From: a virus
Length of the DNA: 48,417 nucleotides
Virus record (IMG/VR): IMGVR_UViG_3300048835_000023
Location: 1 to 48,417 of that record
Reading direction: 5' to 3' (one strand)
Of the stretch, positions 139-33,842 are shown piece after piece (position 1 is the stretch's first letter; every line of letters starts with the position of its first letter). The notes under the pieces were generated by a model. The model had not been told where the DNA came from. It ran no database searches and saw only the letters and a program-made list of their open reading frames with translations. The position numbers and the translations under genes are program-made.

Positions 139-3100
139 TCAGTCACGGTTTGAGGATCAAGACCGAGAACACCTTTTGCAAAGGCGTCCCATCCGTCTGC
201 GTCCTGTAGATACTCACCATTCTTGGAGTAGTACTTATGGTAGTTGACCATAAAGATTGCTTGAGCGCTAGAGTTCACTGAAGAAATCTGACGGAAGATG
301 TTTCCGAGGTCAGACAGCAAGGGCCTAAACTCAAGAGACCCTCCCTTCATGGTTTCGTACAGAGTCGAGGCAAAGTTATTGACAGCAGGGACAGTTCTAT
401 CAAAGAATCCACCCACAGCACCGAACATAATCTCAGCAGCAGACTTGTCTCCACTGACAAAATCCGAGATAAGATTTACACCTCCCGGAGAATAACGCTT
501 ACCAGCAGAGTAGTCCTTACCAAGAATTCCTTCAAACACTTGCTGAAGCAATCCATTGACAACAACATCTGCAAACTTATCTCCGTCCATACCACGCTCA
601 AGGGCAGCCGCCCTCATCTGCTCGTACATGGGAATCATCGTACCAGCAGACAACCCGGCAGGCAATCCATAGACAGCAGAGTAGACTCCAAAGAGCCTAG
701 CTTTCTCGGCTGTCGTAAGTTGCTTACCAGTGAACTGTTCCATCATACGAAGGGCGTATCCGTAGAACTGGGTCGGAACAGAAAGAACACCAGACTGAAG
801 AGCACTGTTACTCGTGTTCGTCATGTTGACGGTAAGAGTATCTGCCCTAGCCAGAATCTTCTGAATCTCTCGATTGTCCAGCTTGAGGAGAGGATTTGCA
901 GACCTCCACTCCTGATACGCAATAAACCAAGCACCCTGACGCATCGAGCTTTCAATACCACGGAAGAACGCAGTACCGGCATGAAGAACTTTCTCGCCGA
1001 TATTACGGTCCCACGTGGCGGGTTCCATAGCATCCTGAAGCATGTGCTCCCGGCCCACTCGGTTCCAACCTACGTCATCCATAGCCTTGAACGCCTCAAG
1101 GAAGTGATCCTCTCGCATTCCAGACATCTTTGCTAGTTTCTGCCGAACGGCTGGACTACCGTTCAAGGTGGCAAGATTGCTCATCATGTTGGGCAGAATA
1201 GATTTCCCCGCAAACTGGGGAGAGATAGCAAACATATGGACGAAGGTACCAGCCTGCACGATCATCTGAACAGGATTGAACATACCGAGAGTAGAGTGGT
1301 ACGCCACGGCACGGAAAAACTCCGTAGGGTCCTTTGCAGTGAACACAGCCCTGTCTCGGTACCAGTTCGGAAACTTGTTCCCAACCGACTTATAGATAGC
1401 GTCAAGAACAGTAGACTTGACCCCATCAATCAGTTCTTCCTGCGGAGAAGACACACCCATCAGGCGCTTGGCTCTAGCTTGGAACGCCCTAGCAACCTGA
1501 ACGTCACCGGCATTGGTTGCTTTCTTGGGATCAACCACACCGTTGTACAGGTAGTAGATCGGATGACGAATCAACTCTTCCTTTGTAGCATCTAGCAGAT
1601 GACCAAACCTCTCAACGAAGTCCTTGGCAAAAGAGTTACGAACATCACTGTAAAACCACTCCTTTGAAGCCTGAGTAAGGCCACGAACAAGAGATTCTGT
1701 AGGATCAATCAGGTCTGCACGGCGAACTTCAAAACCATCCACAGTGGCTGCTGTAAAATCTTCCTTTGCTCCGAGGAACTTGCGCCCCACTTCATCTGCA
1801 ATGGTTGATCTACGCTCTGCCATGTCTTTGAACATACCACCGTACTTGCCCGAGTAGTCGAAGACATCCCCCGCCTTCTGCCCAAACTGAACAGTCTGAA
1901 GCATGTCGGGATCGTCAATCGCCTTCACAGCTTTGTGAAGTTCTCTTGGTATGTTTTTAATGAGGTACTGGTCAAAGTCTTGCGGAGATAGTGTTGCTTT
2001 GGCTTTAACGGCTTCTCTAAGTTTCTGAGTCCATTCCTTTGCCTGCGCTCTGGACGGAAGATTGAGAATCGTTTTGTCACCTTCATAGAAGTTGATACCA
2101 TCCCTTCCCTTGTAGATGACTGGCATGGAAACGTTCCACTGATGTTTGTAGATAACGTGACCACCAGCCCTGACGTTTACCTGTACAGAGTCAATAGGGC
2201 CGCTAAGGAGGCGATCAGTAATAACGTATTCATATGGCTGACCGTCTCCATTCAAAACCTCCTTAAAGGGTTTGTTATTAGGGTTATCAATCTTGATGAT
2301 CCTGAGGTTATTCTTCTTAATGTATTCATTGACGTGGTTTTGAAGAGTGTCCCCACGCTTCTGTTTGAACAAAGTAGCACGAGTAAGAGGCTCGGCTTTC
2401 CCATTCACCCACATGACAATGTTTAGAATATCACGAGGCTCATCAAAACGGTCGAGAAGTTTACCCTCCAAACGAATGGGCGTAGTTCCCTCCCCGCCAA
2501 CAAATTCGTAGGTCTTTAGACCACGAACAACCTTTTCCTTGTAGATAGTCATGTTTCGGATAAACCAATCAACGTCGTTCAACTGGCGAATACGAAAATA
2601 AGCTTCTACTTCCTTTGGAGTAGGGTTGCGGTTAAGAGTCTGACGATAGGCTTTATCAAGGTCAGCAACAGTGTCGTAGTAGACACCACGACCCTCTGGA
2701 CCTATTTCATCTCGGTTTTTGATGAGAATCTTTTCGAGGTCTTTACCTTTGTTGGGAAGTTCTTTTGTAGGAACTGCAAGCTTGCTGAGCCGATCAAGAA
2801 CATTACGATAACGTAGGTTGGCAAGATCGACCTGACCCATTTCCTGTTTAGATAGAGTTTCCCAAGGGGTACGAATCCGGGAAAAGAGACGACCAACAAA
2901 ATTAGACTCCTTCGCAGCATTGTCCCCAGTCGTGAAAGCTTGGTAGAGTCCTCCCTTTGATTCATCGACTTGGTGCCTCGCTACAATAGCAAAACTAGGA
3001 CCAGATTGTTGTGTTCCAATCTCCGCTACTTTGTAGCTACCGGGACGAATCCCGTAGAACTCAGCAGCGTTCTTAGCCTCGTTTTTACTGGTGAACAGTG

Positions 3101-4604: not shown

Positions 4605-5086
4605 TACATTCCCCCGATTCTACGGATAGTCCCTGCGTTTCTAGTCAACGCCCCTCCAAGACTGGTGAGACCGTCTCCTGCGGCACCAATAGTACCACCA
4701 AGCGCCTGTTGTTTGTTAGCACTTAGCTGTCTCTGATTCGCTGCGAAGACTCTGTTACCCAACTCTTCGTTCTGGGTTACGGCAAGTGTATTGCGACCAG
4801 CGTCGCCACTGATACCGCCGTAAGCACCTTCAAGCACGGAAGAGTCACCTCCGATACCCTGTGCCGTAGCAACAGCCTGTGCTTGGGCCACAGCAGCCTG
4901 CTGACGGCGAATGATCTCTCGGCGGTCTCTCTGTGCCTGAAGCTCCATTTGCCGCTTACGAGCCCTCTCAGCCTCTTGCTGAGCCTTGATGGCTTTACGC
5001 TGTCCAGCAGCAGACACAAACTGACCCGCAACACCAGCCGCCGTACCGATTGCGCTAAGCGCTAGACCTACGACTTCAATTCCCAT
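4604..5086 (-). CDS. Small Ala/Gln-rich internal virion protein (T7 gp14-like position), 160 aa
   Basis: The N terminus has a hydrophobic Ala/Gly-rich segment (residues about 5-27). A long amphipathic Gln/Arg/Ala-rich helix (about 28-78) and a Gly-rich tail (about 120-150) follow. This composition is typical of T7 gp14-like internal core protein B, which enters the outer membrane during ejection. It lies between the GNAT-like gene (11-base overlap) and the giant ejection protein (TAATG overlap), as gp14 does between gp13 and gp15. No catalytic motif is visible. The identification rests on composition and order. Confidence 0.7.
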   Translation of the reverse strand: MGIEVVGLALSAIGTAAGVAGQFVSAAGQRKAIKAQQEAERARKRQMELQAQRDRREIIRRQQAAVAQAQAVATAQGIGGDSSVLEGAYGGISGDAGRNTLAVTQNEELGNRVFAANQRQLSANKQQALGGTIGAAGDGLTSLGGALTRNAGTIRRIGGM

Positions 5087-5552
5087 TGTTCACACCTTTT
5101 ATCAATGCTAACTGGTTTATCTCGTATCCACGCTTCTCATAGTTAGGTCCAACGAGAAAGCCATTTACATCAGGAAGCTTGGCTACGGTCACAGCCTTTG
5201 CACCGATGATTTCTGCCCAGAACTCATATGCTTTGAAGAGTTCAGCGGCGTGTCTCGGATACCCGGGATAAACATACCACATGGCTTCGCTAGCCATAAG
5301 CTCTTCACTGAAGAAAGTCTCCGTTGCAAATGCAATCAGGGCACCTACGATTGTCTGACCTTCTAATGCGACAAGAGCCAGCATACGGTTTCTATCGGGA
5401 CTACCGTAGACTCTCCGTAGCTGGCTCCTGACCTTTTCTGTATCAAAACTCAGGCCAGCTTTGGCGTATCCAGTTTCAATAAACATTCGACGAGACAGTT
5501 CGATAACATACTCTTCGTCGTCTTCATTCATAAATCTGATACGGCTCATCAC
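5076..5552 (-). CDS. GNAT-fold protein, probable internal virion protein A (gp13-like), 158 aa
   Basis: The protein starts with the IRFMNEDDEEYVIEL pattern of GNAT N-acetyltransferases, has a central beta segment (about 55-75) and a YPGYPRHAAELFKAYE segment near the usual acetyl-CoA-binding loop. T7-like phages often encode a GNAT-like protein at exactly this place, and it is carried in the virion or needed for its assembly. The ATG overlaps the stop of the tail nozzle gene by ATGA at 5549-5552. Whether it acetylates anything is unknown, because the classical Q/RxxGxG/A loop is not clear. Confidence 0.65.
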   Translation of the reverse strand: MMSRIRFMNEDDEEYVIELSRRMFIETGYAKAGLSFDTEKVRSQLRRVYGSPDRNRMLALVALEGQTIVGALIAFATETFFSEELMASEAMWYVYPGYPRHAAELFKAYEFWAEIIGAKAVTVAKLPDVNGFLVGPNYEKRGYEINQLALIKGVNNGN

Positions 5553-7642
5553 GGACCTTGATTAACTGTGTCAAACGAAGACCAGCCAACAATGTGAAAA
5601 GGCTCGTTTGCGTCTGCTGTAAGTTTCAACTGTAGGGCTTTACCGTGGCCCCTGATCTTCACTCGTCTTGTATCGTAGTCGTAGTTGGTACGAACGAAAC
5701 GAAGTTTCTGGGTGGTGCTCCACCGTCCTGTAATAGCTGTGTTCGCAAAGTCCCAGCGGCCCTGAATGTTAACAATGCTCTCCTCCTCTGTCCGAGAATA
5801 GACATTGATATAGTTCCGCTGCCACTTCTTGTTCCCTTCGCCACGAAGAACATAACCAGTCACTAGGTAGCTTTCGTAGACAGACCCTTGCCCACCAAGA
5901 GGAGTTAGCCAATCTCGGTAGAGGACATCTTTTTCTTCAGCGTAGTGCCAGTTATTTCCGTGACGAACAAGATACTTGAACAGTTTAGGACGCTTCTCGA
6001 CAACATATGTATCGACAGTAACGTTCGCTGAAGCATTGTTCAGAACAGGAACACCTAGATTGTCTAGGACATTCTCAGTACTGGGGACAACAATAGACCC
6101 ACCGACCGAGACAATCCCACTGATCTTCACCTGACTTGTGTCAAACGTATAGATGGAGAAGGCACCCGTTTGGGTGTTCAACGTCAAGATTCGGTCATAT
6201 TGGAATCTCTCTGCTACCGTTGACGGAGCCTCGGAAGAGTAAAGCCAGTGGATTCGTTTCTCGAAGAAGTTGAAGACGCCTTTGGCGTACTTCTTGGAAT
6301 CCTCAGGAAGCTCTGTATAGAACTTCTTGATTCTCTGGTCCGTAAGGCTCTCAAGCTGAAAACCGCCGCTAACAGTGTTCTGCTTGATTTGGTACACAGC
6401 GTCAGAAGCCCACCACACAGGATAGCCACCGACGTTGCAGAACGTATTCTTGTTAAACACACCGAGGTTGCTGATGCTCTTGATCGAGTAGTCAGTAGCA
6501 GTAAAGCCAATTCCCTGAGAACCAGTGATTGCCCACACACCATTAGAGGCGAACACAATCATCGAAGAATCAATAGGCCAAAGCTTGTAGACTTGACCAA
6601 TCTCTGGGATAACAATGACACCACCATCGTTAGGAAGCAGGTCAGAACTGTACTCGGAAGTAGGGTCGCCTGCTTGGTGACACCTACCGTACTTGTCAGC
6701 GGAGTCGGCAATCTGACTGAAGTAAATCCTGTTGTTGAATCCTTGGGCGTTAACACCGGAATACCACACACGACCAGCAAAGAACGCAATAGTCGAGGGG
6801 CGGTTAGCGCCTGAAGTCTGAACAGGTAGACCAGCAACACCAGTCAGGGCTGAACGGTCTTTGTACCACTCGTAGATGATATTGAAGCCCTTTGGAGCAA
6901 GGGAGTTACCCCGGGTAACGTAACCTAGCTCTCGTGGCTTAAACTCTTCGTCTGCGTTCTTGAACAACCACCACACATCGTAGTCTGACGGGTATACACC
7001 AATTGTATAAGCGAACTGGCTAAGGAGGTCAGTGGTCCAGCCTTGGTTGATCAGGTTATACCAGTGTTCGGCAGTCAGACCGCCAAGCCTACCCACCGCC
7101 TCACCTTCAATACCGACAGTATCTCTCGTGTTGATGATGATGGTAGACGACTGGACAGTTTGAGTATCAGGATCGTATTCGCAATAAAAGGGTTCGCAGA
7201 AAGGATGGACGACAAACAGATGGCCGTTACCATACGCAAAGTCACAGGCAATCGTCTCAAAGGAACTATCGACAGTCTTGCTGTAGAAGACTAGATCAAT
7301 TGTCGAAGTGCTGAGAAGATTTGCAGAAACACTGAGAGGGTTTGACAACAGAAAGAAGTGAACATACCTCCCAATCTGTTGAACCAAAATTGTGTTGTCG
7401 CCATCGCCTCCTGCGGCCTCCCATACATACTCGTGAACTGCTTTATCGTCAGGTGTATAAACTAGAGGCGTAGAAGGGCTCTCAAAGTCAAACCCCAACC
7501 TCCGCGTAACCTCTCCTTTGTTGTCAAAGACTACGTTGGCGCAGTCGGTGACTGCGTTCTCGGGGAAGTTGAGACCAGTCGCTTCTGTAACGAATCCGTT
7601 CAGGAAGCTGTTCTCAACGGAGGTTAGGACTTGTCTAGCCAT
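5549..7642 (-). CDS. Tail nozzle / tail tubular protein B (gp12-like), 697 aa
   Basis: The N-terminal 40 residues (NSFLNGFVTEATGLNFPEN, then CANVVFDNKGEVTRRLG) match the start of T7 gp12-like nozzle proteins, which typically describe a gene set leading into a beta-propeller. The rest is beta-rich with many Tyr/Trp residues, as expected for the long tail-nozzle propeller. It closes the tail and forms the DNA exit channel in the virion. It follows the gp11-like gene, separated from it by a 79-residue protein, and its start overlaps that gene's stop (TAATG). Length is close to that of gp12 relatives of about 700-800 aa. Confidence 0.85.
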   Translation of the reverse strand: MARQVLTSVENSFLNGFVTEATGLNFPENAVTDCANVVFDNKGEVTRRLGFDFESPSTPLVYTPDDKAVHEYVWEAAGGDGDNTILVQQIGRYVHFFLLSNPLSVSANLLSTSTIDLVFYSKTVDSSFETIACDFAYGNGHLFVVHPFCEPFYCEYDPDTQTVQSSTIIINTRDTVGIEGEAVGRLGGLTAEHWYNLINQGWTTDLLSQFAYTIGVYPSDYDVWWLFKNADEEFKPRELGYVTRGNSLAPKGFNIIYEWYKDRSALTGVAGLPVQTSGANRPSTIAFFAGRVWYSGVNAQGFNNRIYFSQIADSADKYGRCHQAGDPTSEYSSDLLPNDGGVIVIPEIGQVYKLWPIDSSMIVFASNGVWAITGSQGIGFTATDYSIKSISNLGVFNKNTFCNVGGYPVWWASDAVYQIKQNTVSGGFQLESLTDQRIKKFYTELPEDSKKYAKGVFNFFEKRIHWLYSSEAPSTVAERFQYDRILTLNTQTGAFSIYTFDTSQVKISGIVSVGGSIVVPSTENVLDNLGVPVLNNASANVTVDTYVVEKRPKLFKYLVRHGNNWHYAEEKDVLYRDWLTPLGGQGSVYESYLVTGYVLRGEGNKKWQRNYINVYSRTEEESIVNIQGRWDFANTAITGRWSTTQKLRFVRTNYDYDTRRVKIRGHGKALQLKLTADANEPFHIVGWSSFDTVNQGP

Positions 7643-7881
7643 TACGCAGCTTCCTTACCTTTCGTGGCATTGGTAATGTAGTTGAGCACGCGCTGTTCAG
7701 CCATGTAGAAGTCGGTCCAAAGACCGTCGAGTTCCTGAGGAGTTACACCGCGTTCCATCTTAATTCGGAAAAAACCGTGAGGGTTAGTCGCCTCGATAAA
7801 CAACTTGTTAGTCTTGTAGTCGTAGTCCTTGCGGCGAGGAACATCGCGGGACGGATCGTGGCTCTCATCACTAAAATTCAT
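7642..7881 (-). CDS. Small hypothetical protein between the two tail-tube genes, 79 aa
   Basis: Charged N-terminal region, then a compact domain with FFRIKMERGVTP and a helical end (EQRVLNYITNATKGKEAA). It sits three bases downstream of the gp11-like stop and overlaps the nozzle gene by TAATG. It is therefore in the tail-assembly operon and is probably a minor virion or assembly protein. No family was recognised. Confidence 0.7.
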   Translation of the reverse strand: MNFSDESHDPSRDVPRRKDYDYKTNKLFIEATNPHGFFRIKMERGVTPQELDGLWTDFYMAEQRVLNYITNATKGKEAA

Positions 7882-7884
7882 GTG

Positions 7885-8649
7885 TTACTTCCTTCCGTAA
7901 CCACGCATACGCTGGTAGTCACTCCAACCAGCAATGCGGTGTTGTTTCTGATTCTCAATATTGATACGCGCCCTCTTTGCCTTTCGCTCTGACCTAGAAT
8001 TTGCTGTCTGTTTTAACTCAGCAAAAGCAGTGCTCTTCGCTTCATTCAAAAGAAGACTATAGAACAAGGGAGGTAGAGGAATCTCGAACGCATCACTCAT
8101 GGTAAAAGCAGGACGAAGAGTGCCATAACACAGTGTCTTGTTCTGAACCAAGGTGGTATCGAGTGTCGCCAAGTGGGCGTTGAAGATCAACATATCTTCG
8201 TTGTAGGTAGTGAAGTACTCAGGGTGTCGATCAGTCCTGTAGTAGATGGTGATCGAGCCGTTCGCATCGTTGTGTTCAAACGTACTGATGTTCGGATCAG
8301 TGAAATCCTGAGTATACATTCGGTGAAAGAACTCATCAGGAGGTAGATAGAACACATCCTGAAAAGAGTCGTTCGGTTCGTCCGTAGAGTACTTATTGTA
8401 CTTTACCCACTCCAAGTTCTGGAAGCTGTCTGGAACATACATCAAGACTGGCTTGGATGCAGAACCAGAAGCCTCTAGCTCAAACAGGCGTTTCTGGGAT
8501 GGGTAGTCAGGACGATCAATGATGTTATAGAACTCATCCCTTACGATCTTGGCTACCTGTTGTGCCTCAGTCGTATCAGCGATGGAGTTAACTTCATCAC
8601 TGTCAAGGGAAGAGAGAACAGTCTGAACTACGTCAAGAAGAGTGGTCAT
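7885..8649 (-). CDS. Tail tubular protein A / head-tail adaptor (gp11-like), 254 aa
   Basis: This is an adaptor-type protein. The N terminus (TLLDVVQTVLSSLDSDEVNS) is the helical start common to gp11-like proteins of podoviruses. The phrase YNIIDRPDYP and later PPLFYSLLLNEAKSTAFAELKQ fit the family, which bridges portal and nozzle. The C terminus is strongly basic with a repeated Arg/Gln pattern. The start overlaps the o-spanin stop by ATGA. Length matches relatives of about 200-260 aa. Confidence 0.8.
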   Translation of the reverse strand: MTTLLDVVQTVLSSLDSDEVNSIADTTEAQQVAKIVRDEFYNIIDRPDYPSQKRLFELEASGSASKPVLMYVPDSFQNLEWVKYNKYSTDEPNDSFQDVFYLPPDEFFHRMYTQDFTDPNISTFEHNDANGSITIYYRTDRHPEYFTTYNEDMLIFNAHLATLDTTLVQNKTLCYGTLRPAFTMSDAFEIPLPPLFYSLLLNEAKSTAFAELKQTANSRSERKAKRARINIENQKQHRIAGWSDYQRMRGYGRK

Positions 8650-8867
8650 TGTGTCACTTCCCTTTTCTGGTAGTCTCTAGCTAATTCCTTGATCCAGAGA
8701 CATACGTCTTCACGCTTATCAATCTTACACCGCCTTTCCAAATCGTTGACTACAACAAGAGGAGGGGCGCTAAGCTGAGGAAGTCTACTCGTACTTACGC
8801 TTGGATCGCTCGCGCAAGCTGTCAATAGCGTTATCAACAGTAAGCTTGGAATTGTCAATCTCTTCAT
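8646..8867 (-). CDS. Outer-membrane spanin lipoprotein (Rz1-like), 73 aa
   Basis: Basic start MKRL, a hydrophobic core, and a lipobox LLTAC with Cys18 as the lipidated residue. A Pro-containing linker (LPQLSAPPL) and a short Cys-containing C-terminal helix follow. Rz1-type o-spanins pair with an inner-membrane spanin to fuse inner and outer membranes in the last step of lysis of Gram-negative cells. It begins inside the Rz-like gene in another frame (83-base overlap), the classical overlapped spanin layout. It therefore supports a Gram-negative host. Confidence 0.88.
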   Translation of the reverse strand: MKRLTIPSLLLITLLTACASDPSVSTSRLPQLSAPPLVVVNDLERRCKIDKREDVCLWIKELARDYQKREVTQ

Positions 8868-9042
8868 ACTTCTTCCTCAGTTCTTCCTGTTGTTTGATCA
8901 TCTTTTCCCGTTCTTGCATCTGGCCTTGCTTAACCCAATCGTGTCTGATCTTGAGGACAAACAGAATGAAAGCGAAGACACTAGCCAGAGCAGCGTAAAA
9001 CTTAACCCCTAGGGTTGAGAAGAACGATATAATCTTAGACAC
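8785..9042 (-). CDS. Inner-membrane spanin (Rz-like), 85 aa
   Basis: One N-terminal membrane segment (residues about 12-31) is followed by a periplasmic coiled coil rich in Glu, Lys, Arg and Gln (about 40-85). This is the topology of Rz-type i-spanins, although shorter than lambda Rz. It overlaps the endolysin stop by 8 bases upstream and contains the start of the Rz1-like gene. Function is inferred from topology and from the overlapped neighbour. Confidence 0.85.
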   Translation of the reverse strand: MSKIISFFSTLGVKFYAALASVFAFILFVLKIRHDWVKQGQMQEREKMIKQQEELRKKYEEIDNSKLTVDNAIDSLRERSKRKYE

Positions 9043-9802
9043 CTTCTTTCTTCCTCAGCTTATGTCTGCCGTAAAGGGCGAGACCAATACCGACAACTAC
9101 TAACGCAAAAGCCGCCAGAGCATAAGGGTTGGAAACAGCAGTAAGAAGAGATGCAAGAACGGAGCCACCGCCAGCAGTAAGAACACCAATAGTAGTCTTA
9201 TCCGTAAGAATAGAAGGTTTGTCCGGTTTGGCTGCATCAGGAGCTTCCTCCTCTACAACCTTAATCTTCTCTTCCGTCGTAGCAGCAACAAGAGCCATCT
9301 TAAAGTTGTGGTAAAAATCTGCGATAAGACCGGCTTTGTCAGTACCGTTCACAATCCTTCGTGCCTCACGAGGGTCTTCCTTAACGTCATTGAAATACTG
9401 GTTCAGACGTTTACCAGTAAACATCCCAAGGATCATGCCTCGGAATAGAGCATCAAGAGCACGAGGCCAAGTCATCATCTGGCCGGGAGCAGTTGCACCG
9501 AACTTCTTGTGGTTTCGCTCCCACGTAATCTGAACCAGACCTTCTCCGACCCACGGATAATACTTCTTGGAACGAAGATACTTTTCCCCACCCTTTTCTC
9601 GAACTGGCTGCATAGTACGGCCAGACTCCCAGAAAGCTGTGGCAAGGATGTAAGCGAATTCGTTCAGAGAAAGTTTGGGATATTTCTCTTCCTTGTAATC
9701 GAGGATTTTGTTCAGACCATCAGCCTGAGTCTCAGAAACTCTTCCGTTGAACGGAGCATTCCGAACATACTGGAAGAAAGTTGGTCTGTGTATCTTATTC
9801 AT
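9035..9802 (-). CDS. Endolysin, GH19 chitinase-like, with C-terminal membrane region, 255 aa
   Basis: Residues 1-165 resemble GH19-type phage endolysins: AFWESGRTM with the likely catalytic Glu59, a YYPWVGEGLVQITW segment (81-94), and a conserved region ending in NGTDKAG. A charged Pro/Glu linker (about 175-200) leads to hydrophobic stretches at about 208-248 (IGVLTAGGG..., then YALAAFALVVVGIG) and a basic tail. The enzyme should cut the glycan strands of peptidoglycan. The C-terminal membrane region is unusual for a soluble endolysin and could tether it to the membrane. It lies directly upstream of Rz/Rz1, making a compact lysis cassette. Confidence 0.85.
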   Translation of the reverse strand: MNKIHRPTFFQYVRNAPFNGRVSETQADGLNKILDYKEEKYPKLSLNEFAYILATAFWESGRTMQPVREKGGEKYLRSKKYYPWVGEGLVQITWERNHKKFGATAPGQMMTWPRALDALFRGMILGMFTGKRLNQYFNDVKEDPREARRIVNGTDKAGLIADFYHNFKMALVAATTEEKIKVVEEEAPDAAKPDKPSILTDKTTIGVLTAGGGSVLASLLTAVSNPYALAAFALVVVGIGLALYGRHKLRKKEGV

Positions 9803-20934: not shown

Positions 20935-21387
20935 TTAGAACGTGCCGCAATCAACCGTACCCACTGCCAAAGTAACGAAAGCATTTCCTGCATCTTTTGT
21001 CCACTCCATCGAGGTATTCATACGGAGAATACCATCAGTTCCGTCCGTACCCCAGATGTATCCAGTAGTGCCACCAGAGACAACCGAAACCTTTTCATCG
21101 GACGAGCCGGGAGGAATTGCAAGAGCCGTCTTGAAGTCATTGAAGAGAATTTTCTTTTCTTTCATACCCGTACCATCTGCATCGTGCATGATCAGATAGT
21201 CGGCAGCACCGTTAACAGATGCGAGGGTAGCAAGATCATCAATCGGAGGAACAACAGGCTGGGTCGTTGTTGCACCAGTAGCAATGTGTAGAGTGCTACG
21301 ATCAGTCGTATAGTGCTGCTCACCAGCAAGCATGCTGGAAGTCGGAAGAGCGGCCTTTAGTCCACGCTTAATCTGAATACGAGGCAT
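20935..21387 (-). CDS. Short tail appendage protein, 150 aa
   Basis: The N terminus (RIQIKRGLKAALPTSSMLAGEQHYTTD, read as separate short motifs) is the same opening domain as in the 314-aa fibre. The middle is beta-rich and the protein ends in VDCGTF. The 94-aa protein encoded next to it also ends in DCGTF followed by Asn, so the two products share a C-terminal tag-like ending. It probably belongs to the adsorption apparatus. Exact role unknown. Confidence 0.65.
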   Translation of the reverse strand: MPRIQIKRGLKAALPTSSMLAGEQHYTTDRSTLHIATGATTTQPVVPPIDDLATLASVNGAADYLIMHDADGTGMKEKKILFNDFKTALAIPPGSSDEKVSVVSGGTTGYIWGTDGTDGILRMNTSMEWTKDAGNAFVTLAVGTVDCGTF

Positions 21388-21398
21388 GTGTTACTCCG

Positions 21399-21683
21399 TC
21401 AGTTGAATGTTCCACAATCGAGTGGAAGGGTTAAGATATCAAGAAAATCGCCTAGTCGATTGTCGAAATCAATCTTTCGGAATGGTTCAGAATTGGAAAC
21501 AGGTTCAGGAAGATTCATGATCCTGTAGTTGTTCATGTCGAAATCGGCCTGCATCGAGTTAGGAGAGGAACCATCTCTGGTTACGACTTTGTCACTAAAA
21601 GTCTCGATAGCCTGATTGTTACTGTTGATTGTAGATACAGCGGTGTCAATGGACCCGAGATCAGTTAGATTCAGCTTGGTCAT
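21399..21683 (-). CDS. Small appendage protein, N-terminal fibre domain only, 94 aa
   Basis: Nearly the whole protein is the anchor-like domain found at the start of the 255-aa appendage protein (MTKLNL, DKVV, DGSSPNSMQADFDMNNYRIMNLPEP, EPFR, given as separate motifs). Only a short tail ending in DCGTFN follows. It looks like a fibre gene reduced to its virion-binding part, or a free-standing adaptor. It lies between the putative small terminase and the other fibres. Confidence 0.65.
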   Translation of the reverse strand: MTKLNLTDLGSIDTAVSTINSNNQAIETFSDKVVTRDGSSPNSMQADFDMNNYRIMNLPEPVSNSEPFRKIDFDNRLGDFLDILTLPLDCGTFN

Positions 21684-22349: not shown

Positions 22350-22441
22350 GCTCCGCAGTTTGTACCTTAGGTATAACTTAAGGGGCCTAGGGATAATCCA
22401 TAGGGTTAGATACCTTTACTTATGCGGAGCATACCCTATGG
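22350..22441. repeat. Nested inverted repeats upstream of the late promoter
   Basis: GCTCCGCA (22350-22357) is inverted at 22423-22430 as TGCGGAGC. CCATAGGGT (22398-22406) is inverted at 22433-22441 as ACCCTATGG. The arms interleave, so only one structure can form at a time. A palindrome TACCTTAGGTA (22363-22373) lies inside. The arrangement resembles regulatory or origin DNA rather than a terminator. Confidence 0.6.
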
Positions 22442-22537: not shown

Positions 22538-22565
22538 TTGTTAAGTATTACTTAAGGTATTATAT
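22538..22565 (+). promoter_or_regulatory. Possible early rightward promoter
   Basis: TTGTTA (22538-22543), a 16-base spacer and TTATAT (22560-22565). Hexamers are weaker than in the leftward promoter. The first supported rightward gene begins at 23402, so a leader of more than 800 bases would result. Low certainty. Confidence 0.35.
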
Positions 22566-25688: not shown

Positions 25689-26231
25689 ATGCCTTATACA
25701 GTCGGAGGTATCTACCACTTCAACGCTTCCGCAGAGGGAATTTCCGATAATGGCTACCCACCTTATCCACCCGGAAACGATGAAGATTTCGCTGGAATGG
25801 TAATCTTCAATCGGTCGGAGTTGCAGGGCCACCCGAGCAGTTTGGTCGCAGTGACTCCGGTGGTCATGCGAATTCCTTATGATTCTCAGAATCTTTCCGA
25901 GTTGGTGTTGTGGAGGGACTTTGAGTTTGCCACTGGTTATGTCACCAACACCGAATTGATGGATCGTTATCCTCATGTACAACTTCCAGAGACACTCACG
26001 TCTTTTATCGCTGAAAACGTGTCAGGGGACAATCTGGGTGAAATGAGCTTTGGGGAATTGTTCTCGAGTGTCGGTCTGTCAGCTTGGTGGGTGGATTCAG
26101 AGGTTCAGGCTGATGCGCGCTTTTTTGGAATGGGTGTATCCGCAAGTTCAAAGAACAGACCCAGCCCATTACGGATAAGGCAAATCCCCAAGAGCAAAAG
26201 CATGTTCAAAGTCAACAAGAAAGGGGTGTGA
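25689..26231 (+). CDS. Unknown protein with conserved C-terminal tail (candidate modification substrate 1), 180 aa
   Basis: ATG at 25689, preceded by AAGGAGA. The body is acidic and aromatic, with a Pro-rich patch (NGYPPYPPGNDEDF). The last 15 residues are IPKSKSMFKVNKKGV, which closely match the last 14 of the next protein (IPKSSSSFNVNKNT). The bodies of the two proteins show no obvious similarity. The gene opens the cassette of ligase-type enzymes (26755-31461). A shared tail next to peptide ligases suggests a recognition or attachment site. No known family was recognised. Confidence 0.7.
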   Translation: MPYTVGGIYHFNASAEGISDNGYPPYPPGNDEDFAGMVIFNRSELQGHPSSLVAVTPVVMRIPYDSQNLSELVLWRDFEFATGYVTNTELMDRYPHVQLPETLTSFIAENVSGDNLGEMSFGELFSSVGLSAWWVDSEVQADARFFGMGVSASSKNRPSPLRIRQIPKSKSMFKVNKKGV

Positions 26232-26232
26232 C

Positions 26233-26685
26233 ATGCCAATTTTCTTATGGAACCCCGATACGGACGATTATACGGATGTCGAGACTCAAGACACTCCCTA
26301 TGATGATCCTCCGTATGATGATTTCATGGACGAAGAGTATGAAGAAGATGAGGAAGACTTTGATGAAATGACACAAGATGCCAACTTTGTCAGAGCTTTG
26401 GATCATCTAATCCAGAGGTTGTTGAAGGAGAGTGTAGAGGCAAGGGAACTGGTGAAGAAAAAGATATTGGAAGACCATTCCTACATTACATATGTAAGGG
26501 ATATACGTTTTGGACAGGGCTTTACTCTGGTAGAGGCTGAACATACACGACCTGATGGTACTGTTAGAACAGACCTCTTCCATCTGTTCTCTCTATTTAC
26601 GATTGAAAGTCTTCTCTCTACCTTAGGTAACTACTTAAATATACCTAAGTCTTCTTCTTCTTTTAATGTCAATAAGAACACCTAG
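26233..26685 (+). CDS. Very acidic unknown protein with the same C-terminal tail (candidate substrate 2), 150 aa
   Basis: Starts one base after the previous stop. Residues about 10-55 are extremely acidic (long Asp/Glu runs with Tyr), followed by a helical region and a strand pair (VEAEHTRPDGTV). The end is IPKSSSSFNVNKNT, matching the neighbour's tail at I, P, K, S, S, F, V, N and K. Different codons are used, so selection on the peptide rather than recent DNA copying is likely. A promoter-like palindromic repeat lies between this gene and the ligase. Function unknown. Confidence 0.7.
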   Translation: MPIFLWNPDTDDYTDVETQDTPYDDPPYDDFMDEEYEEDEEDFDEMTQDANFVRALDHLIQRLLKESVEARELVKKKILEDHSYITYVRDIRFGQGFTLVEAEHTRPDGTVRTDLFHLFSLFTIESLLSTLGNYLNIPKSSSSFNVNKNT

Positions 26686-26713
26686 AGATACCTTAGGTAT
26701 ATACCTTAGGTAT
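26619..26713. promoter_or_regulatory. TACCTTAGGTA palindromes before the ligase cassette
   Basis: Copies lie at 26619-26629, 26689-26699 and 26702-26712. The last two form an exact tandem of ATACCTTAGGTAT (26688-26713), directly before an AT-rich TATATTTTATATAGG that could serve as a -10 region. Another copy at 22363-22373 lies upstream of the late promoter. Operator function is an inference. Confidence 0.6.
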
Positions 26714-26754
26714 ATTTTATATAGGTGCTCTTAAGGAAAAAACAAGAGGCAAGC

Positions 26755-27477
26755 ATGAGAATTTTATATAGAAACTTCAGGAAGAGTGCTCGTCTCTTGG
26801 CAAGGGCACTCGGTGTCAACGCCTACCATGTAGACCGTGTTTCCTATCACCGCGCCACCGACTTCAGATATGGCTGCGACAGCGAAGGCTTGAGCAGGAT
26901 AAACAAAGCTGCTCAAAGGAAGTTTATATCCCAGACCCTTAATCTTCCTGTTCCTTATACTGTTTTGAACGGAGGGGAACGAATCGAAGGGGTTCAACAT
27001 CAAACACGGTATGTCAGCAGACCTCTGTCTCATTTCGGAGGTTCTAATTTCGTGTTGAGAGACGGACCTTTACATGAGACGGAAGACATTCCAGACGGAT
27101 GTTATTTCTCCGCCCTGTTCGAGAAGACACGAGAATATCGTATTCTTTTTGTCAAGGGAAAATTCGTTACTCTTTTGACAAAAACACCACGAGAAGGTGT
27201 CAAGGCGAGCCCTGAAATTCCGTGGAACCATGCTACAGGTGATTTTCGTTTCGTTACCACGTCTCGCGATACATATGCGGGACGGAGGTTTGAGATAATT
27301 GAACGGTTGGAAAAGTGTTTCGATAATACTAACTACTCATGGCCTGATATTGTGGGCTTTGATATCGGCTACAATCCTGAAAACTGGGTGGTGTTCGAGA
27401 TGAACTTCGCCCCTGCTTTAACCGAAGTCACCCTTCCGAGGGTTGTCTCATTCCTCACGGAGAATCAAGATGGTTAA
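26755..27477 (+). CDS. RimK-like ATP-grasp ligase, 240 aa
   Basis: ATG at 26755 (AGAGG upstream) is chosen over a GTG at 26725. The middle carries an ATP-grasp pattern KTREYRILFVKGKFV (124-138). The end has GFDIGY...WVVFEMNFAPAL (201-221), which matches the D...E-x-N metal-binding triad (Asp203, Glu215, Asn217) of RimK-type peptide ligases. Such enzymes activate a carboxylate as acyl phosphate and join it to an amine. At 240 aa it is shorter than typical (about 290-320), so part of the N-terminal fold is reduced. It overlaps the amidoligase start by 8 bases. Confidence 0.75.
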   Translation: MRILYRNFRKSARLLARALGVNAYHVDRVSYHRATDFRYGCDSEGLSRINKAAQRKFISQTLNLPVPYTVLNGGERIEGVQHQTRYVSRPLSHFGGSNFVLRDGPLHETEDIPDGCYFSALFEKTREYRILFVKGKFVTLLTKTPREGVKASPEIPWNHATGDFRFVTTSRDTYAGRRFEIIERLEKCFDNTNYSWPDIVGFDIGYNPENWVVFEMNFAPALTEVTLPRVVSFLTENQDG

Positions 27478-29671
27478 TCGGGCAACTGCACACAATGAAG
27501 TGCTGCGCGAATGGTTCAGCGATGCATATACGATGCTTATGTACAGGGTTACGACCCATCTGTTCGAGTTTCATCCGAAGACGGGTGTTGACTCCAGTAT
27601 GTGGACCGAATACGCAAGGAAGCGTCTTCGCGAAGCAGTTGTCAATCCTTTCGGATTGTTTCTGTCCAATCAATCGGACATCCTCAATCTGCACAACCCG
27701 TCTGTGCTTCGGTCTCTGACCGAAAGAATGAGTCTGGAAGATGTGGTGTGGGCCTATTTTGCCAAGTGTGTCCAAACTTACTCCACAAATGGCCTTTCTC
27801 TTCTATATGCCCGTCTCGTCCTCCTGAAAAGAAGGATCGAGAGTGGGGACACCACACCTCCGGCTCAGCTTTTGGAAAATCTGACCAGAACCACTGACGT
27901 TGCTTCTGAAAACAAGCGTGGTTTCTTCAAACTGATCGTCCACACAGGTAGTTTTCTGCTTCAATTCTCTACGAAAACCTTCTCCACCAAGTATAAGTGG
28001 ACGGTGGATGAGTCTGGTTTCGAGACCAGCTTCAACTTCTGGTTCGATTATGTGGAGACTGTGGCTCGTCTTGTGGATTTCAGCGCATTCCGCGAGACTC
28101 TGGCGACAACAACGACTATTCCGAGGTCGATCCTTTCTGATCAACTTGTTTACTCAGCAGAAAGAGGTCGTCGTCCTGCTCAGATTCACTATGTGTTTTT
28201 TCAGAGTGGATCGAATGTTTCCTCCGAGTACGTTGATGCCGAGAGGTATGGGTATCATCATCTGAACATTCAACTCAATGGTGTAAACCAAGAGGTTTTT
28301 ACGACCTACAACGTGTTGACTCTGTTTGATCGACAGGCGTCAATATCTCCTTTGGTATCTGAACTCAGGTCTCGTCCTCAGCCCCTTTGCCTGTCCGTTT
28401 CTATGCTGTCAGGACTGGTACTCCCACTACTCTCGTCATTCTTCATCCCTTTGACGGGAATCAAGTCTGTAGGTGGTACTCTTCTTCTCTTCGAGACCCC
28501 AACCAGTATAGTCTCCCTTAACAGGACTACTGACATCGTCCGTGAATTGGGGAGTCATTCTTTTCAGCTTCGGTATACTCTACCGGGACAGACTTCTGAT
28601 CCCGGTCGCCCTCTGAATTACTCTCACAGGGTGGAACGTTCGCTCAATACGCTGATCACTCCGGTGGCTCTTGATCCATTGCTCGGTGTGGAGCTTGAGG
28701 TCTCGACGGATTACACCTACCGTCAGATGATGAAAGACTGGATCGTACCAAAGAGTGACGGCTCGGTGTCTGGGTCGAAGCGGTATCTGATGGAGTTGGT
28801 TACTGCTCCGATGGCTTACTCTGTGCAACGGAGGAAGTGGCGGGAATTCTTCAAAGAACATCCTTCCAATGGTTTCTGTCTGAACACCAACACAAATGGA
28901 CTTCACATCCATCTGGCTCAGAAGAGTTTCCTGAACAACGAGCATTACTCGAACTTCGTTCGGTTCTTTCTGAATCTGGAAAACTACTCGTTCCTCCAGA
29001 TCATCTCTCACCGCCGTTTCTTCTCTGGTGGTCCGGGTCAGTTCACTGGTGTTCCGGTTTTGTTAACTCAGTTTTGGGAAAGCGAAAAGGCTTTGTTCGA
29101 GTACCTCAACAACAAGTATGTCCCTCTCGGGATCAAGGGTGAAACTGTTGAATGTCGTTTGTTCAACGGTTACCCGACTGTTGGTATGCTCCTTCTGGCT
29201 CTTGACTTTATGGGAGCTTTGTTCGTCTTCTCTTACGAGAGGAAGTTCTCTCCCAAGGCGGTGACCGTAAAGGAGTTTATCGAGTGGCTTGATACGACTC
29301 AGCGTAGCCAGTATCGTGCTCTCAAGGTGTGGTGGCGTGATCTTTCTGAGGGTCTGAAGCCGTTGATTCTGAACGGTCTCATCAGAAACAGTGACTATAC
29401 CGAAATGGACAGGACACAGTGGGTCTTTGCTCCTTCTGGTGTTATGCTTGCCCGTCCTCCGCTAAACCCTCCCGATCTTTCTTTCGAGAAGTTTGAGAAG
29501 ATTCAGCCTCCAAAAGCGGTTGCATCTTGCACTCTTGAGGACGTGCCTGATGGAACCATAGTCAGGCGTAACTACTTCACCCGACCCATTTACTTCTCGA
29601 AGAAGGACAAGTCTATGATTCGTCCTGCTCGGGCTAAGTGGCCTATCTCCAACCAAGAACGATTCGTCTGA
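27470..29671 (+). CDS. Amidoligase (COOH-NH2 ligase of the glutamine-synthetase-like fold), 733 aa
   Basis: ATG at 27470 with GGAG seven bases upstream. The C-terminal part shows the amidoligase signature. LLGVELEVS at about 402-410 carries the metal-binding Glu pair, NTNGLHIHLAQ lies at about 474-484 and GETVECRLF at about 551-559, followed by a helical end. Phage amidoligases of this fold are thought to attach amino groups or amino acids to carboxylates using ATP. About 400 N-terminal residues precede the core and match nothing recognised. It may provide the target-binding part. The usual core is only about 250-300 aa, so this is a large version. Confidence 0.8.
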   Translation: MVNRATAHNEVLREWFSDAYTMLMYRVTTHLFEFHPKTGVDSSMWTEYARKRLREAVVNPFGLFLSNQSDILNLHNPSVLRSLTERMSLEDVVWAYFAKCVQTYSTNGLSLLYARLVLLKRRIESGDTTPPAQLLENLTRTTDVASENKRGFFKLIVHTGSFLLQFSTKTFSTKYKWTVDESGFETSFNFWFDYVETVARLVDFSAFRETLATTTTIPRSILSDQLVYSAERGRRPAQIHYVFFQSGSNVSSEYVDAERYGYHHLNIQLNGVNQEVFTTYNVLTLFDRQASISPLVSELRSRPQPLCLSVSMLSGLVLPLLSSFFIPLTGIKSVGGTLLLFETPTSIVSLNRTTDIVRELGSHSFQLRYTLPGQTSDPGRPLNYSHRVERSLNTLITPVALDPLLGVELEVSTDYTYRQMMKDWIVPKSDGSVSGSKRYLMELVTAPMAYSVQRRKWREFFKEHPSNGFCLNTNTNGLHIHLAQKSFLNNEHYSNFVRFFLNLENYSFLQIISHRRFFSGGPGQFTGVPVLLTQFWESEKALFEYLNNKYVPLGIKGETVECRLFNGYPTVGMLLLALDFMGALFVFSYERKFSPKAVTVKEFIEWLDTTQRSQYRALKVWWRDLSEGLKPLILNGLIRNSDYTEMDRTQWVFAPSGVMLARPPLNPPDLSFEKFEKIQPPKAVASCTLEDVPDGTIVRRNYFTRPIYFSKKDKSMIRPARAKWPISNQERFV

Positions 29672-29699: not shown

Positions 29700-30818
29700 A
29701 TGTGTGTTATCATCGCCAAGCCCTCGAACGTGGCGTCCTTCGACAAGGATGACATTGTTTCTGCTTCGAGTGTCAATCCCGATGGATGGGGTGTGTCCTA
29801 CGTCGAGGAGGGTGTTCTGAAAGTGCATCGTTTCTACGACAAGAGTGGGAACAACGCAAATGAGATCAACGAATGGTTTGAGAAGCTCAAGGACAAGGAG
29901 GCTGTTTTCCACCTTCGATTCTCAACAGCGGGTGCCAAGAATGAAGAGAACTGCCACCCTTTTCTGATCCCACTGTCTGACAAGGAACAGATCGCTTTCC
30001 ACCACAACGGGACTATCTCTGAGACTGGTTCTGACTCAGAGCGGTCGGATACCAAGTGGGTCGCTGATGAAATTATGCCAAAACTATTGGCTGATTTCGT
30101 CGATCCTGAAACTGGACTGCTGAATATCAAGGACCCTGCTCTTCACTTTATCCTGACCAAGATCGCTGGTTCTGGTAGCAAGTTCGCCCTGCACTCGAAT
30201 CTTCAGGGTGTCCTACTCATCAACTCCAAAGCTGGTGACACACGTCATGGATGTTGGGTATCCAATACCTACAGCTTCAATGCCTACCACCGAACGAAAT
30301 CGACCTACTCTTCGGCTGTGTATGGTGGCTACGAAAAGGGGGTAAGCAAAGGGGCAACAGCCCCTTTTCACGCAAAGACTTCCACGGCAAAGATATCGGA
30401 AGTCACCACGAAGAAAGTAGCCAGCACCAGTCATACACAGAGTGGTGGCTCGAAAGGTACGGCACTCACGGTTACTGAACCCCTGAAGCCTGACCAGTTC
30501 AACAAGACGATGGAGACGAAGTTGGTCAAAACTATTCCTACTCTCAATCAATACCTACTGAGTCTTTATCCTGCGGTTGACCCGGAAGAGTCTCAGAACT
30601 TCGCGGCCTACACCATCGGAAAGGTTGATCTGGATCAGATGAGCAAGCTCGGTATTGACGATCTTGCAGTTATCGCTGATGATCATCCCGAAATCGTTGG
30701 TGCGCTGCTCTTCTCTCTGCTTCAGATGGCTCAGGATGCTTACTTCGCTGAGTTTATCTATACCGAAGCGGACTACGAAGGTGAAACTTCTCGTGAACTC
30801 GTAAAGAAGGTGGCTTGA
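29700..30818 (+). CDS. Class II glutamine amidotransferase with extra C-terminal domain, 372 aa
   Basis: N-terminal nucleophile Cys2 follows the initiator Met. NPDGWGVSY (26-34), HLRFSTAG (71-78), a Cys-His pair at 85-86 and HNGTIS (102-107) are the class II motifs. They hydrolyse glutamine and channel ammonia. The domain ends near residue 200. A Ser/Thr/Lys/Gly-rich linker (about 200-265) and an acidic helical C-terminal domain (about 270-372) follow and are not recognised. It directly follows the amidoligase. Supplying ammonia or glutamyl groups to that enzyme is the likely role. A terminator-like hairpin lies inside the coding sequence at 30348-30368. Confidence 0.85.
   Translation: MCVIIAKPSNVASFDKDDIVSASSVNPDGWGVSYVEEGVLKVHRFYDKSGNNANEINEWFEKLKDKEAVFHLRFSTAGAKNEENCHPFLIPLSDKEQIAFHHNGTISETGSDSERSDTKWVADEIMPKLLADFVDPETGLLNIKDPALHFILTKIAGSGSKFALHSNLQGVLLINSKAGDTRHGCWVSNTYSFNAYHRTKSTYSSAVYGGYEKGVSKGATAPFHAKTSTAKISEVTTKKVASTSHTQSGGSKGTALTVTEPLKPDQFNKTMETKLVKTIPTLNQYLLSLYPAVDPEESQNFAAYTIGKVDLDQMSKLGIDDLAVIADDHPEIVGALLFSLLQMAQDAYFAEFIYTEADYEGETSRELVKKVA
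30348..30368 (+). other. Terminator-like hairpin inside the amidotransferase gene
   Basis: AAAGGGGC (30348-30355), loop AACA, GCCCCTTTT (30360-30368). The 8-base-pair GC-rich stem plus four Ts is placed at the start of the low-complexity linker. It could attenuate transcription towards the downstream replication genes, or it could be a coincidence of coding. Confidence 0.5.
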
Positions 30819-30819
30819 T

Positions 30820-31461
30820 ATGTACCAAATAGACGCTTGGGAACGTTCGATCCTCATTGACGCTATGGGTATTAAGTTGTTCGGCTGGTCCTCAAGCTGG
30901 TCGGAGAACTTCGAGAGGGAGTTGTCTTCCTTCAACAAGAATGTCGAGGAGATGGCAGAGGATAATTACTACACCCCGGACCTCACTGAACTTTACAGTA
31001 AGGGTGCCCACTTCATCTGGCTCTGGGGGCCTTATGCCAAAGGTCATCGTCGTCAGTTGAACAAGAACTTCGACGACAAGGCTGTGATGGTTGGTCATGC
31101 AGTGCTTCCTATCACCGCGCGCCTCTCCTCCTCGCACATCACTCCCGGAAAATATGCCTTGACAAAGGAGCCCGAATCAAGCAATACTCTTGTATCGGGT
31201 GAAATCTGGATGGTGACGCCTGAGGTTGTGACTCAACTCGACTTCAACGAGAGTAACACTATCGTCAAGGAACGGGAGCTACACAACGTCTGGTTCGCAG
31301 GGAAAGATTATCCCTGTTGGGTTTATTTCGACAAGAAACCCGGCTTCGAGGTCAATATGGCTCTTGACAAGGCTTTCGTAAGTTCGTACGAGATGTCTCT
31401 CAAGAGGGACCCGAAGCGGAAGTTCACTGTGTTTTATACCCGAAAGGAGCTTATTGCGTGA
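30820..31461 (+). CDS. Gamma-glutamylcyclotransferase/AIG2-like protein, 213 aa
   Basis: The region about 64-172 follows the GGCT fold pattern. FIWLWGPYAKGH resembles the YGTLKKG substrate loop, and VSGEIWMVTPEVVTQLDFNES resembles the VEGELYEV...LDALE segment. Glu144 is the likely catalytic acid, and WVYF follows near 167. The N-terminal 60 residues are additional. The enzymes release 5-oxoproline from gamma-glutamyl groups, so this one could trim or reverse what the ligases add. The match is a distant one made by eye. It starts one base after the amidotransferase stop. Confidence 0.6.
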   Translation: MYQIDAWERSILIDAMGIKLFGWSSSWSENFERELSSFNKNVEEMAEDNYYTPDLTELYSKGAHFIWLWGPYAKGHRRQLNKNFDDKAVMVGHAVLPITARLSSSHITPGKYALTKEPESSNTLVSGEIWMVTPEVVTQLDFNESNTIVKERELHNVWFAGKDYPCWVYFDKKPGFEVNMALDKAFVSSYEMSLKRDPKRKFTVFYTRKELIA

Positions 31462-32085: not shown

Positions 32086-32286
32086 ATGATGTATTCTGTC
32101 TATATGTGCGATACCCCTTATCAGGGTACTGTAGGTGAGGGAAGGGCCACCTTCGAGTGGAATCAGCCTGCCGAGTATATGCAGTTTCTTCTCGAATGTA
32201 TTGACGCTGGAAAGGAATACTACGGAACGGCCTCCCCTTCTGAGTCCTACATGCTTGTTGGTCTGACAGCCGAGGACTTTGATTGA
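32086..32286 (+). CDS. Small hypothetical protein, 66 aa
   Basis: ATG at 32086 with GGAG six bases upstream. The longer frame from 32023 overlaps the TTG-started gene and lacks a ribosome site. Acidic, aromatic, with a strand-turn-helix pattern (RATFEWNQPAEYMQFLLECI). Its stop overlaps a TTG that is an alternative start of the helicase. No family recognised. Confidence 0.6.
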   Translation: MMYSVYMCDTPYQGTVGEGRATFEWNQPAEYMQFLLECIDAGKEYYGTASPSESYMLVGLTAEDFD

Positions 32287-32288
32287 AC

Positions 32289-33842
32289 ATGGCCTCACGG
32301 CTTTTGAAGTCTCATCAGCCGTGTCCTTGCGGGAAAAGCAGTGATGCCTACTCAGAATATGAGAATGGTGGTCATTGCTTTTCCTGCGGGAAACATTTTG
32401 GAGATTATCATATGGAGGATACCGGAGAGTACTCGTTCGAGTACCTTCCTTGGCGTGGCATCACCAAGGAAACGATGGAACGATACAAGGTGCTGACCAA
32501 GATCGACTCTGAAGGTAAACCTCTGTCTATCGGATTCCCATATGGGACGGCGGCTTACAAGATCAGAGATATCAATCTCAAGCGATTCTTGTCGAAGGGT
32601 CCCATCTCAACTGAGCCTTTGTTCGGTATGTCTGCCTTTAGCGCAGGGAGCTTCCGTGAGATCACTATTACGGAAGGTGAGATGGATGCCATGTCCATGT
32701 GGCAAGTCACTGGACGACCTGCTGTGTCCATTCGTGGGGCCTCTTCAGCCAAGAAGGATATCATCGCAAACATCGACTACTTCAACTCGTTCAATCGTAT
32801 CTACCTTGCGTTGGATAACGATGGTCCGGGTGAAGAAGCTACCAAGGCTATCGCAAGCCTCTTCGACTTCAACAAAATCTACCATGTCAAACTGACCAAG
32901 TACAAGGATGCGAGCGATTATGTCCAGAACGGGGCTTCTGAAGAACTTAAGTGGTCTTGGATCAATGCTCGTAGGTTTCTTCCAGCGGAAGTTTACTCGT
33001 CATTCGATCAGTTTCGAGACCTCTTGCGGGAGGAGTCTGCTGAAAGTCTCGGTTCCTACCCATTTCCCACCCTGCAAAGTAAGACTTATGGTCTCCGGGC
33101 AGGAGAGGTTGTCCTATTCACCGCCCTCGAAGGAATTGGAAAAACCGAAATCATCCGAGCCATCGAGCATCACATCCTTAAATCTACCGATCTCAAAATT
33201 GCGGTGATTCATCTTGAGGAGTCCAAGAAACGGACACTTCAGGGGCTAGCCAGTTATGAGTTGGACCGTCCTGTACATCTTCCTGATTCTTCTCTATCTG
33301 AGGAGGAGGTCTTTGATGCTGTCAAGAAGGCTGTTGTTGTGGATGACCGTCTCCACATATATACTCATTTTGGTTCTGATGATCCAGATGTTATTCTGAG
33401 CATCATAAGGTTCCTTGTGAGTTCGTGTGGATGCAAGCTCGTTTTCCTCGATCACATCACCATGCTTGTTACTGGCAGTAAGGACGATGATGAGCGGCGG
33501 TCCCTCGACTATCTCTCTACCAAGTTCGAGTGGATGGTTGAGGAACTTGGTTTCTGTCTTGTCCTTGTGTCCCATGAGAATGACGACGGTAAGACTCGTG
33601 GTTCTCGTAACATCAGCAAGATCGCTGACCTGTGGATTCAGTTGATCCGTGACAAGGAGGCTGCTACTGAGACAGAACGTAACACGACTACCTTGATGTG
33701 TAAGAAGAATCGTTTCGCTTCGCACACTGGTGTCATGGGATATCTTTACTTTGATCCCACAACTTTCAAGGTAACAGAAAAGACTGATGCTGAACTCAAC
33801 CACATGGTATCTGGAAACACAGTAGAGGACTTACCAACATGA
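32289..33842 (+). CDS. Primase-helicase (T7 gp4-like), 517 aa
   Basis: The N-terminal zinc-binding region has CPCGKS at about 10-15 and CFSC at 30-33. A TOPRIM primase core follows, with TEGEMDAM (Glu near 130) and LALDNDGPG near 173-181. The hexameric helicase domain has Walker A ALEGIGKTE (about 279-287) and Walker B KLVFLDHI (about 376). It synthesises primers and unwinds the fork ahead of the T7-like polymerase. A TTG at 32283 with better ribosome-site spacing is an alternative start adding two residues. Length is close to T7 gp4 (566). Confidence 0.92.
   Translation: MASRLLKSHQPCPCGKSSDAYSEYENGGHCFSCGKHFGDYHMEDTGEYSFEYLPWRGITKETMERYKVLTKIDSEGKPLSIGFPYGTAAYKIRDINLKRFLSKGPISTEPLFGMSAFSAGSFREITITEGEMDAMSMWQVTGRPAVSIRGASSAKKDIIANIDYFNSFNRIYLALDNDGPGEEATKAIASLFDFNKIYHVKLTKYKDASDYVQNGASEELKWSWINARRFLPAEVYSSFDQFRDLLREESAESLGSYPFPTLQSKTYGLRAGEVVLFTALEGIGKTEIIRAIEHHILKSTDLKIAVIHLEESKKRTLQGLASYELDRPVHLPDSSLSEEEVFDAVKKAVVVDDRLHIYTHFGSDDPDVILSIIRFLVSSCGCKLVFLDHITMLVTGSKDDDERRSLDYLSTKFEWMVEELGFCLVLVSHENDDGKTRGSRNISKIADLWIQLIRDKEAATETERNTTTLMCKKNRFASHTGVMGYLYFDPTTFKVTEKTDAELNHMVSGNTVEDLPT

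Follow-up and report, generated by a model that had tools for sequence, protein, structure and literature searches.

Why should two neighbouring proteins of unlike sequence end in the same short peptide, just ahead of a set of ligase-type genes? The question is raised by a viral window of 48,417 nucleotides (the whole stretch of DNA that was analysed), whose terminase shares about 60% identity with the terminases of relatives among the Roseobacter phages, e.g., SIO1 and ICBM1. On its plus strand, ORF A (25689..26231, 180 aa) and ORF B (26233..26685, 150 aa, very acidic in its N-terminal half) are separated by a single base, and neither of them belongs to a known family. ORF A terminates in the tail IPKSKSMFKVNKKGV (26184..26228) and ORF B in the tail IPKSSSSFNVNKNT (26641..26682), at the positions given by a sequence-only reading of this DNA. 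That reading had also held the two bodies to be unlike, in agreement with the local alignment of both proteins, where the sole meaningful similarity was the C-terminal match of IPKSKSMFKVNK with IPKSSSSFNVNK (next best E = 12). Within it, 9 of the 12 residues of the motif IPKSxSxFxVNK (26184-26219 in A) are identical, and the tails end in KKGV and KNT, respectively. When the 20-residue tails of the 257 window ORFs with at least 50 aa were compared, the A/B pair ranked first among 32,896 pairs, with a score of 44 versus 36 for the runner-up. Elsewhere in the window, in the tail-fibre region, two adjacent structural genes of the minus strand (20935-21387 and 21399-21683) end in (V/L)DCGTF, a weaker likeness with a score of 35.

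Among 2.9 million viral contigs, the tail motif of A and B was confined to this virus. Searched as a degenerate DNA pattern, it matched a single contig, a near-identical copy of the window virus (99.99% identity) with both tails present; the occurrence of the tail in many proteins lacking a ligase neighbour, which had been envisaged as an argument against a ligase connection, was thus not observed. Homologues of A and B, sought in phage records and viral contigs, were recovered only from the window virus, and the structure predicted for A from its single sequence was uninterpretable (pLDDT 33). The family defined by the window tail has therefore two members only. Tail comparison showed it to be unrelated to the tails of other phage families described below; a likeness to the FKGNK of locus L061 was within the background level and was dropped.

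Downstream of B, the two ligase-type enzymes noticed in the sequence-only reading are indeed present, recognizable at the level of remote homology only. The first one (26755..27477, plus strand) is a predicted ATP-dependent carboxylate-amine ligase of the ATP-grasp type, with an ATG start at 26755 and an in-frame GTG upstream at 26725. It gave no curated Pfam match, but BLASTP related it to the ATP-grasp of the Rhizobium phage RHph_N3_19 (2e-5) and hhalign to a profile of phage ATP-grasps (E = 7.2e-8). The conserved motifs EYRIL and FEMNFAP, the latter aligned with LEVNTAP, support this homology, which extends to the metal/ATP-binding E-x-N near the C-terminus of known ATP-grasps. The second enzyme (27470..29671, plus strand), whose ATG at 27470 overlaps the ATP-grasp stop, is a putative PF12224-like amidoligase with a long N-terminal extension. 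The PF12224 profile scored 12.2 bits on it, below the curated cut-off of 22 bits; it matched PHROG 16683 and the amidoligase PHROG 2443 (the latter with E = 0.005), and aligned by hhalign with phage amidoligases (E = 4.6e-6 over 176 columns). It displays the motifs GVELE, KSDGS, H-x-H and VECRLF, with the invariant core GxExE, DGS, GxHxH and ExRxF, and it is homologous to accepted phage amidoligases across the catalytic core.

Two more enzymes complete the module on the plus strand. A class-II glutamine amidotransferase (29700..30818) was matched by PF13230 with 43.7 bits (cut-off 23) and keeps the invariant M1 and nucleophile Cys2, its identity being certain as judged from these features. A GGACT/AIG2-like (gamma-glutamyl cyclotransferase-like) protein (30820..31461) scored 22.7 bits with PF06094, versus a cut-off of 22.8, and has a homologue in the same place in locus L235. 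Next comes a primase/helicase (32283..33842, plus strand), which has this position behind the module in related phages as well. L235, the nearest module-bearing relative as judged by the primase/helicase, contains all four enzymes in an unchanged order, and neither A, nor B, nor a shared tail was found in it; so for the window the tail and the ligases are not strictly linked, and the only other copy of the window tail is that of the near-identical contig. A separate observation concerns the amidotransferase of another locus, L012, where an ORF at 4671-5066 repeats the C-terminal part of the enzyme encoded at 2371-3237 (SVVESWDDAESHSYNKAFDF), perhaps a partial duplication.

Modules with ATP-grasp and amidoligase have annotated examples among LUZ24-like, phiEco32-like and Zobellviridae phages. 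Iyer et al. in 2009 reportedly predicted phage modules of ATP-grasp, amidoligase (PF12224), COOH-NH2 ligase, GATase and GGACT. Like the known ones, the window module comprises ATP-grasp, amidoligase, GATase-II and GGACT-like genes and then the primase/helicase, in this order; unlike them, it has no recognisable GATase-I or COOH-NH2 ligase gene nearby. Earlier proposals for the module were cell-wall modification against superinfection or the production of secondary metabolites (PMC10580990), while for R2K-type ATP-grasps a role in the modification of host proteins was proposed (PMC4431377). The module itself is already known, and no mention of protein families with shared C-terminal tails was found in the open-access literature that was searched.

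The relationship between tails and modules was considered in a wider set of phages. With an ATP-grasp as the query, 314 phage records gave a match; 80 viral loci were gathered by phage ATP-grasp, all as best matches to one ATP-grasp, and 78 module loci were compared. Genes were called as simple ORF picks, and the last 15 residues of every gene pair were compared, with the requirement that the bodies be unlike. Tail-sharing pairs of unlike proteins occurred in 13 of the 78 module loci (147 of 31,686 within-locus pairs), which were spread over 11 of 54 ATP-grasp clusters formed at 60% identity. No tail pair appeared in 77 module-less early-region loci, located through their primase/helicase (22,702 pairs), which were shorter on average than the module loci and similar in the number of gene pairs compared, nor in a set of 80 viral loci taken at random (7,675 pairs). 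Fisher tests gave p = 2.9e-7 versus all 157 control loci and p = 1.4e-4 versus the matched 77, values to be read with a sample of module loci that is non-random and phylogenetically related. Cross-locus tail pairs amounted to 10 of 296,020, mostly between related phages (e.g., L035/L036/L037 and L051/L052), and within-locus pairs were more than one hundredfold commoner. A permissive search for families of at least three members found them in 9 module loci, versus a shuffle mean of 3.4; as each control set also gave one apparently spurious family, the stringent pair test was relied on.

At the stringency of the survey, 65 of the 78 module loci showed no tail pair, and a shared tail was absent from six module phages (L028-L033) and from fifteen distant amidoligase loci; a window-like tail sought in the distant amidoligase loci L004-L022 was not found. 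Since most module-bearing phages lack the tail, the enzymes must be able to function independently of it. The loss of the tail from homologues that keep the ligases, a finding that the sequence-only reading would have taken against itself, is partly true, with L235 and most module phages as instances. In a 45-kb piece of T4, one weak tail pair was seen, with one ORF of the pair unannotated. As an observation apart, three ORFs located ahead of the primase in L237, a locus with no detected module (4887-5561, 6745-7470 and 7493-9157), end in a loose LxFLxxR; the pattern is below the survey threshold and could be a weak tail sharing outside the module.

The tails differ from one phage to another. 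Some ten small proteins of the Rhizobium phages RHph_N3_19 and N3_13 end in variants of YDQTGDTEEDI, their genes being interspersed with those of amidoligase, ATP-grasp and amidotransferase, and their bodies being similar at noise level only. Other tails are YSPEQNGDTDEDI in L036, KTLEELMEEYL in L052, KINTFKGNK in L061, LSPVILEEN in Salinivibrio phage CW02, NFSLENE in Citrobacter phage CVT22 (with 14 LENE-tailed ORFs) and DEDLYY in L097; DI, YL, GNK, ENV and ENE are among the endings found. The three cultured phages CW02 (L331), CVT22 (L332) and RHph_N3_19 (L333) have 9 to 14 small same-tailed ORFs each in the early region, for the most part labelled as hypothetical proteins and located among or flanking the module genes; no tail genes were found in the structural halves of these genomes. 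A further tail pair adjoins the ATP-grasp of a bacterial assembly contig (L315). The same tail can be present on different protein types of one phage (VGD-type and ATH-type in CVT22, L052 and L061), and it can be retained among related phages (RHph/L035-L037 and L051/L052), persisting between carriers with ATP-grasps only 59-71% identical. A model of a VGD-type tail protein (pLDDT 61, mostly beta) gave no significant match in a PDB search; there is a hint of an SH3-like fold, with PF18129 below its cut-off. For one ATH-type protein of CVT22, no relatives were found in other phages. By its unlike proteins, its C-terminal motif at peptide level and the ATP-grasp module nearby, the window pair fits the definition of such a private family.

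In two loci, the tail is borne by the ligase itself. The PF12224 amidoligases of L101 and L081 (3e-14 and 1e-7, respectively) share a tail with a protein of 162-176 aa and no known function, encoded directly after the ATP-grasp (L101:5298-6239 with L101:8654-9184, tail ADIESILAELDNFI; L081:6882-7784 with L081:9725-10213). This was counted as support for recognition by the ligase module. The tails of each pair are nearly identical also in DNA, with same-codon fractions of 0.92 (L101) and 0.78 (L081), the segment having thus been copied at the DNA level fairly recently. These pairs look as if a 3' end had passed between unrelated genes.

The presence of shared tails beside the module suggests a tail-based address or tagging system. 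Our preferred interpretation, held tentatively and at somewhat less than an even chance, is that the tail is a private recognition peptide, short and linear, through which two small early proteins of unlike sequence would come under a single partner; this partner would most probably belong to the adjoining ATP-grasp/amidoligase/amidotransferase/GGACT module. It would dock on the tail, and then either modify the tail-bearing proteins or work in a complex with them. We infer that the window pair belongs to the wider tail phenomenon, that its partner is the module and that the outcome is covalent modification. The sequence-only reading had proposed a recognition or attachment site, and its two halves fared differently: recognition agrees in part with the survey (13 of 78 module loci versus 0 of 157 controls), while attachment is disfavoured by the variation of the final residues. 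Docking would be likelier than an attachment to the extreme C-terminus, because several families (L052, L061 and the window) have 2-5 variable residues behind the motif and because no acceptor residue is common to all tails.

Known systems offer partial parallels to such a recognition peptide. In the PEP-CTERM/exosortase and sortase systems, as in the phages, unrelated proteins carry a common C-terminal signal for a dedicated enzyme of the same genome. Those signals require a hydrophobic segment together with basic residues clustered at the membrane, a combination not found in the tail sequences, which are short and soluble. A free C-terminal Gly-Gly or Gly-Gly-Glu/Gln, as in tags of the ubiquitin or Pup type, was not found in the tails either. 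RimK glutamylates ribosomal protein S6, acting on its acidic C-terminal tail, and there is a likeness in that phage ATP-grasps carry the annotation of S6 glutaminyl transferase; the window tails, however, are basic, with V or T as the last residue.

The main rival to recognition by the module, and a quite possible one, is that the tail directs or docks its carriers to a different partner (a replisome part, a host protein, a compartment, a protease or a chaperone), while the module merely co-occurs in the same lineages. Its strength comes from the enzymes being kept without tails in most phages and from the sampling of loci by best matches to one ATP-grasp. Moreover, lineage is a confounder, since the tail families accompany an expansion of VGD-type and ATH-type small proteins in a subset of the module phages; the tail association may track phage lineage instead of enzyme function. 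There is also a precedent in T4, where an N-terminal capsid targeting sequence, which is cleaved, sends the internal proteins into the head: the N-termini of IPI-IPIII, re-read here, share MKT(Y/F)xEF. In both cases, a short and nearly identical terminal peptide is found on unlike bodies, but the T4 signal is N-terminal and cleaved, while the window tail is C-terminal and belongs to early-region proteins encoded beside ligases. With a conserved host partner, the tails of different phages would be expected to resemble each other, yet they differ, and in two phages it is the amidoligase that carries the tail. Also against another partner, Vibrio phage ICP2, which has no annotated module and belongs to the same family as CW02 and CVT22, showed no tail pairs.

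A second alternative to a recognition peptide, considered improbable, is that the tails are functionless remnants of recombination or duplication, with 3' ends copied between neighbours. The codon agreement of the L101 and L081 tails and the partly similar bodies of the tail families of L069 and L104 would fit such an origin. The window pair and the largest families do not, as their codons agree only to the extent expected from usage, the peptide being what is kept, and as tails persist between phages with diverged ATP-grasps. In the A/B tails, only 3 of the 9 identical residues have an identical codon (0.33, versus 0.40 expected from codon usage), both shared serines being AGC in A and TCT in B; the earlier observation that the codons differ was thus upheld, and conservation is at the level of the peptide and not of the DNA. 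Codon identity was also near the usage expectation in the tails of RHph_N3_13, L035, L036, L052 and CW02. The free variation of synonymous codons in RHph_N3_13, L035, L036, L052 and the window indicates that the peptide is the conserved entity.

The same codon data make it very improbable that the tails are nucleic-acid signals (a Shine-Dalgarno sequence with start overlap, or an operator) translated as part of the 3' end of the gene, and by this test an RNA-level origin of the main tail families was rejected. Signals of this kind do leave a trace in some cases: the LENE tails of CVT22 and the LLEENV tails of CW02 are often encoded by GGAG(GAG) with the next start immediately after, and the same-codon fraction of the CVT22 tails is 0.62; the ribosome-binding site of the next gene contributes to the CVT22 tail and partly to that of CW02. 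In the window, the KKGV of A encodes AAAGGGG ahead of the start of B, but the motif IPKSxSxFxVNK is mostly upstream of any ribosome site, no gene starts directly behind B, and other families vary synonymously. An operator deserves separate comment. The palindrome ATACCTTAGGTAT, with two perfect tandem copies between B and the ligases (26688..26713), has 11 matches at up to 2 mismatches versus 0.58 expected, located at 26618-26713, 22362-22374 and 22548-22560, some of them between divergent gene blocks; the copies probably serve a phage regulator as operators. In B, the I-P-K codons (ATACCTAAG) resemble half of this palindrome repeated just downstream, a caveat to the codon comparison, while those of A (ATCCCCAAG) have no likeness to it. 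Codon choice disfavours a nucleic-acid signal for the window. Least credible of all is that the A and B tails match by chance and have nothing to do with the families of other phages: the window family has only two members, neither with relatives for a conservation test, and control loci show a background of about one unlike-body tail pair scoring at least 40 per some 37,000 gene pairs, but the score of 44, not reached in any of 200,000 residue shuffles of the A and B tails, belongs to adjacent genes, involves both C-termini and is found beside a module.

A tail motif carried by a defined set of small phage proteins would provide candidate substrates or partners of the phage ligase modules. 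Substrates named by their tails would make this widespread module testable in the cultured phages CVT22, CW02 and RHph_N3_19. A broader proposal, which we regard as possible but less likely than not, is that module phages run a dedicated tagging or conjugation system, where a private C-terminal peptide would mark unlike small proteins, and sometimes the ligase itself, as clients of the phage's own ligases; differing between phages, the peptide would be a code of self-recognition. If the tails are private codes, they may report phage-phage competition within one cell.
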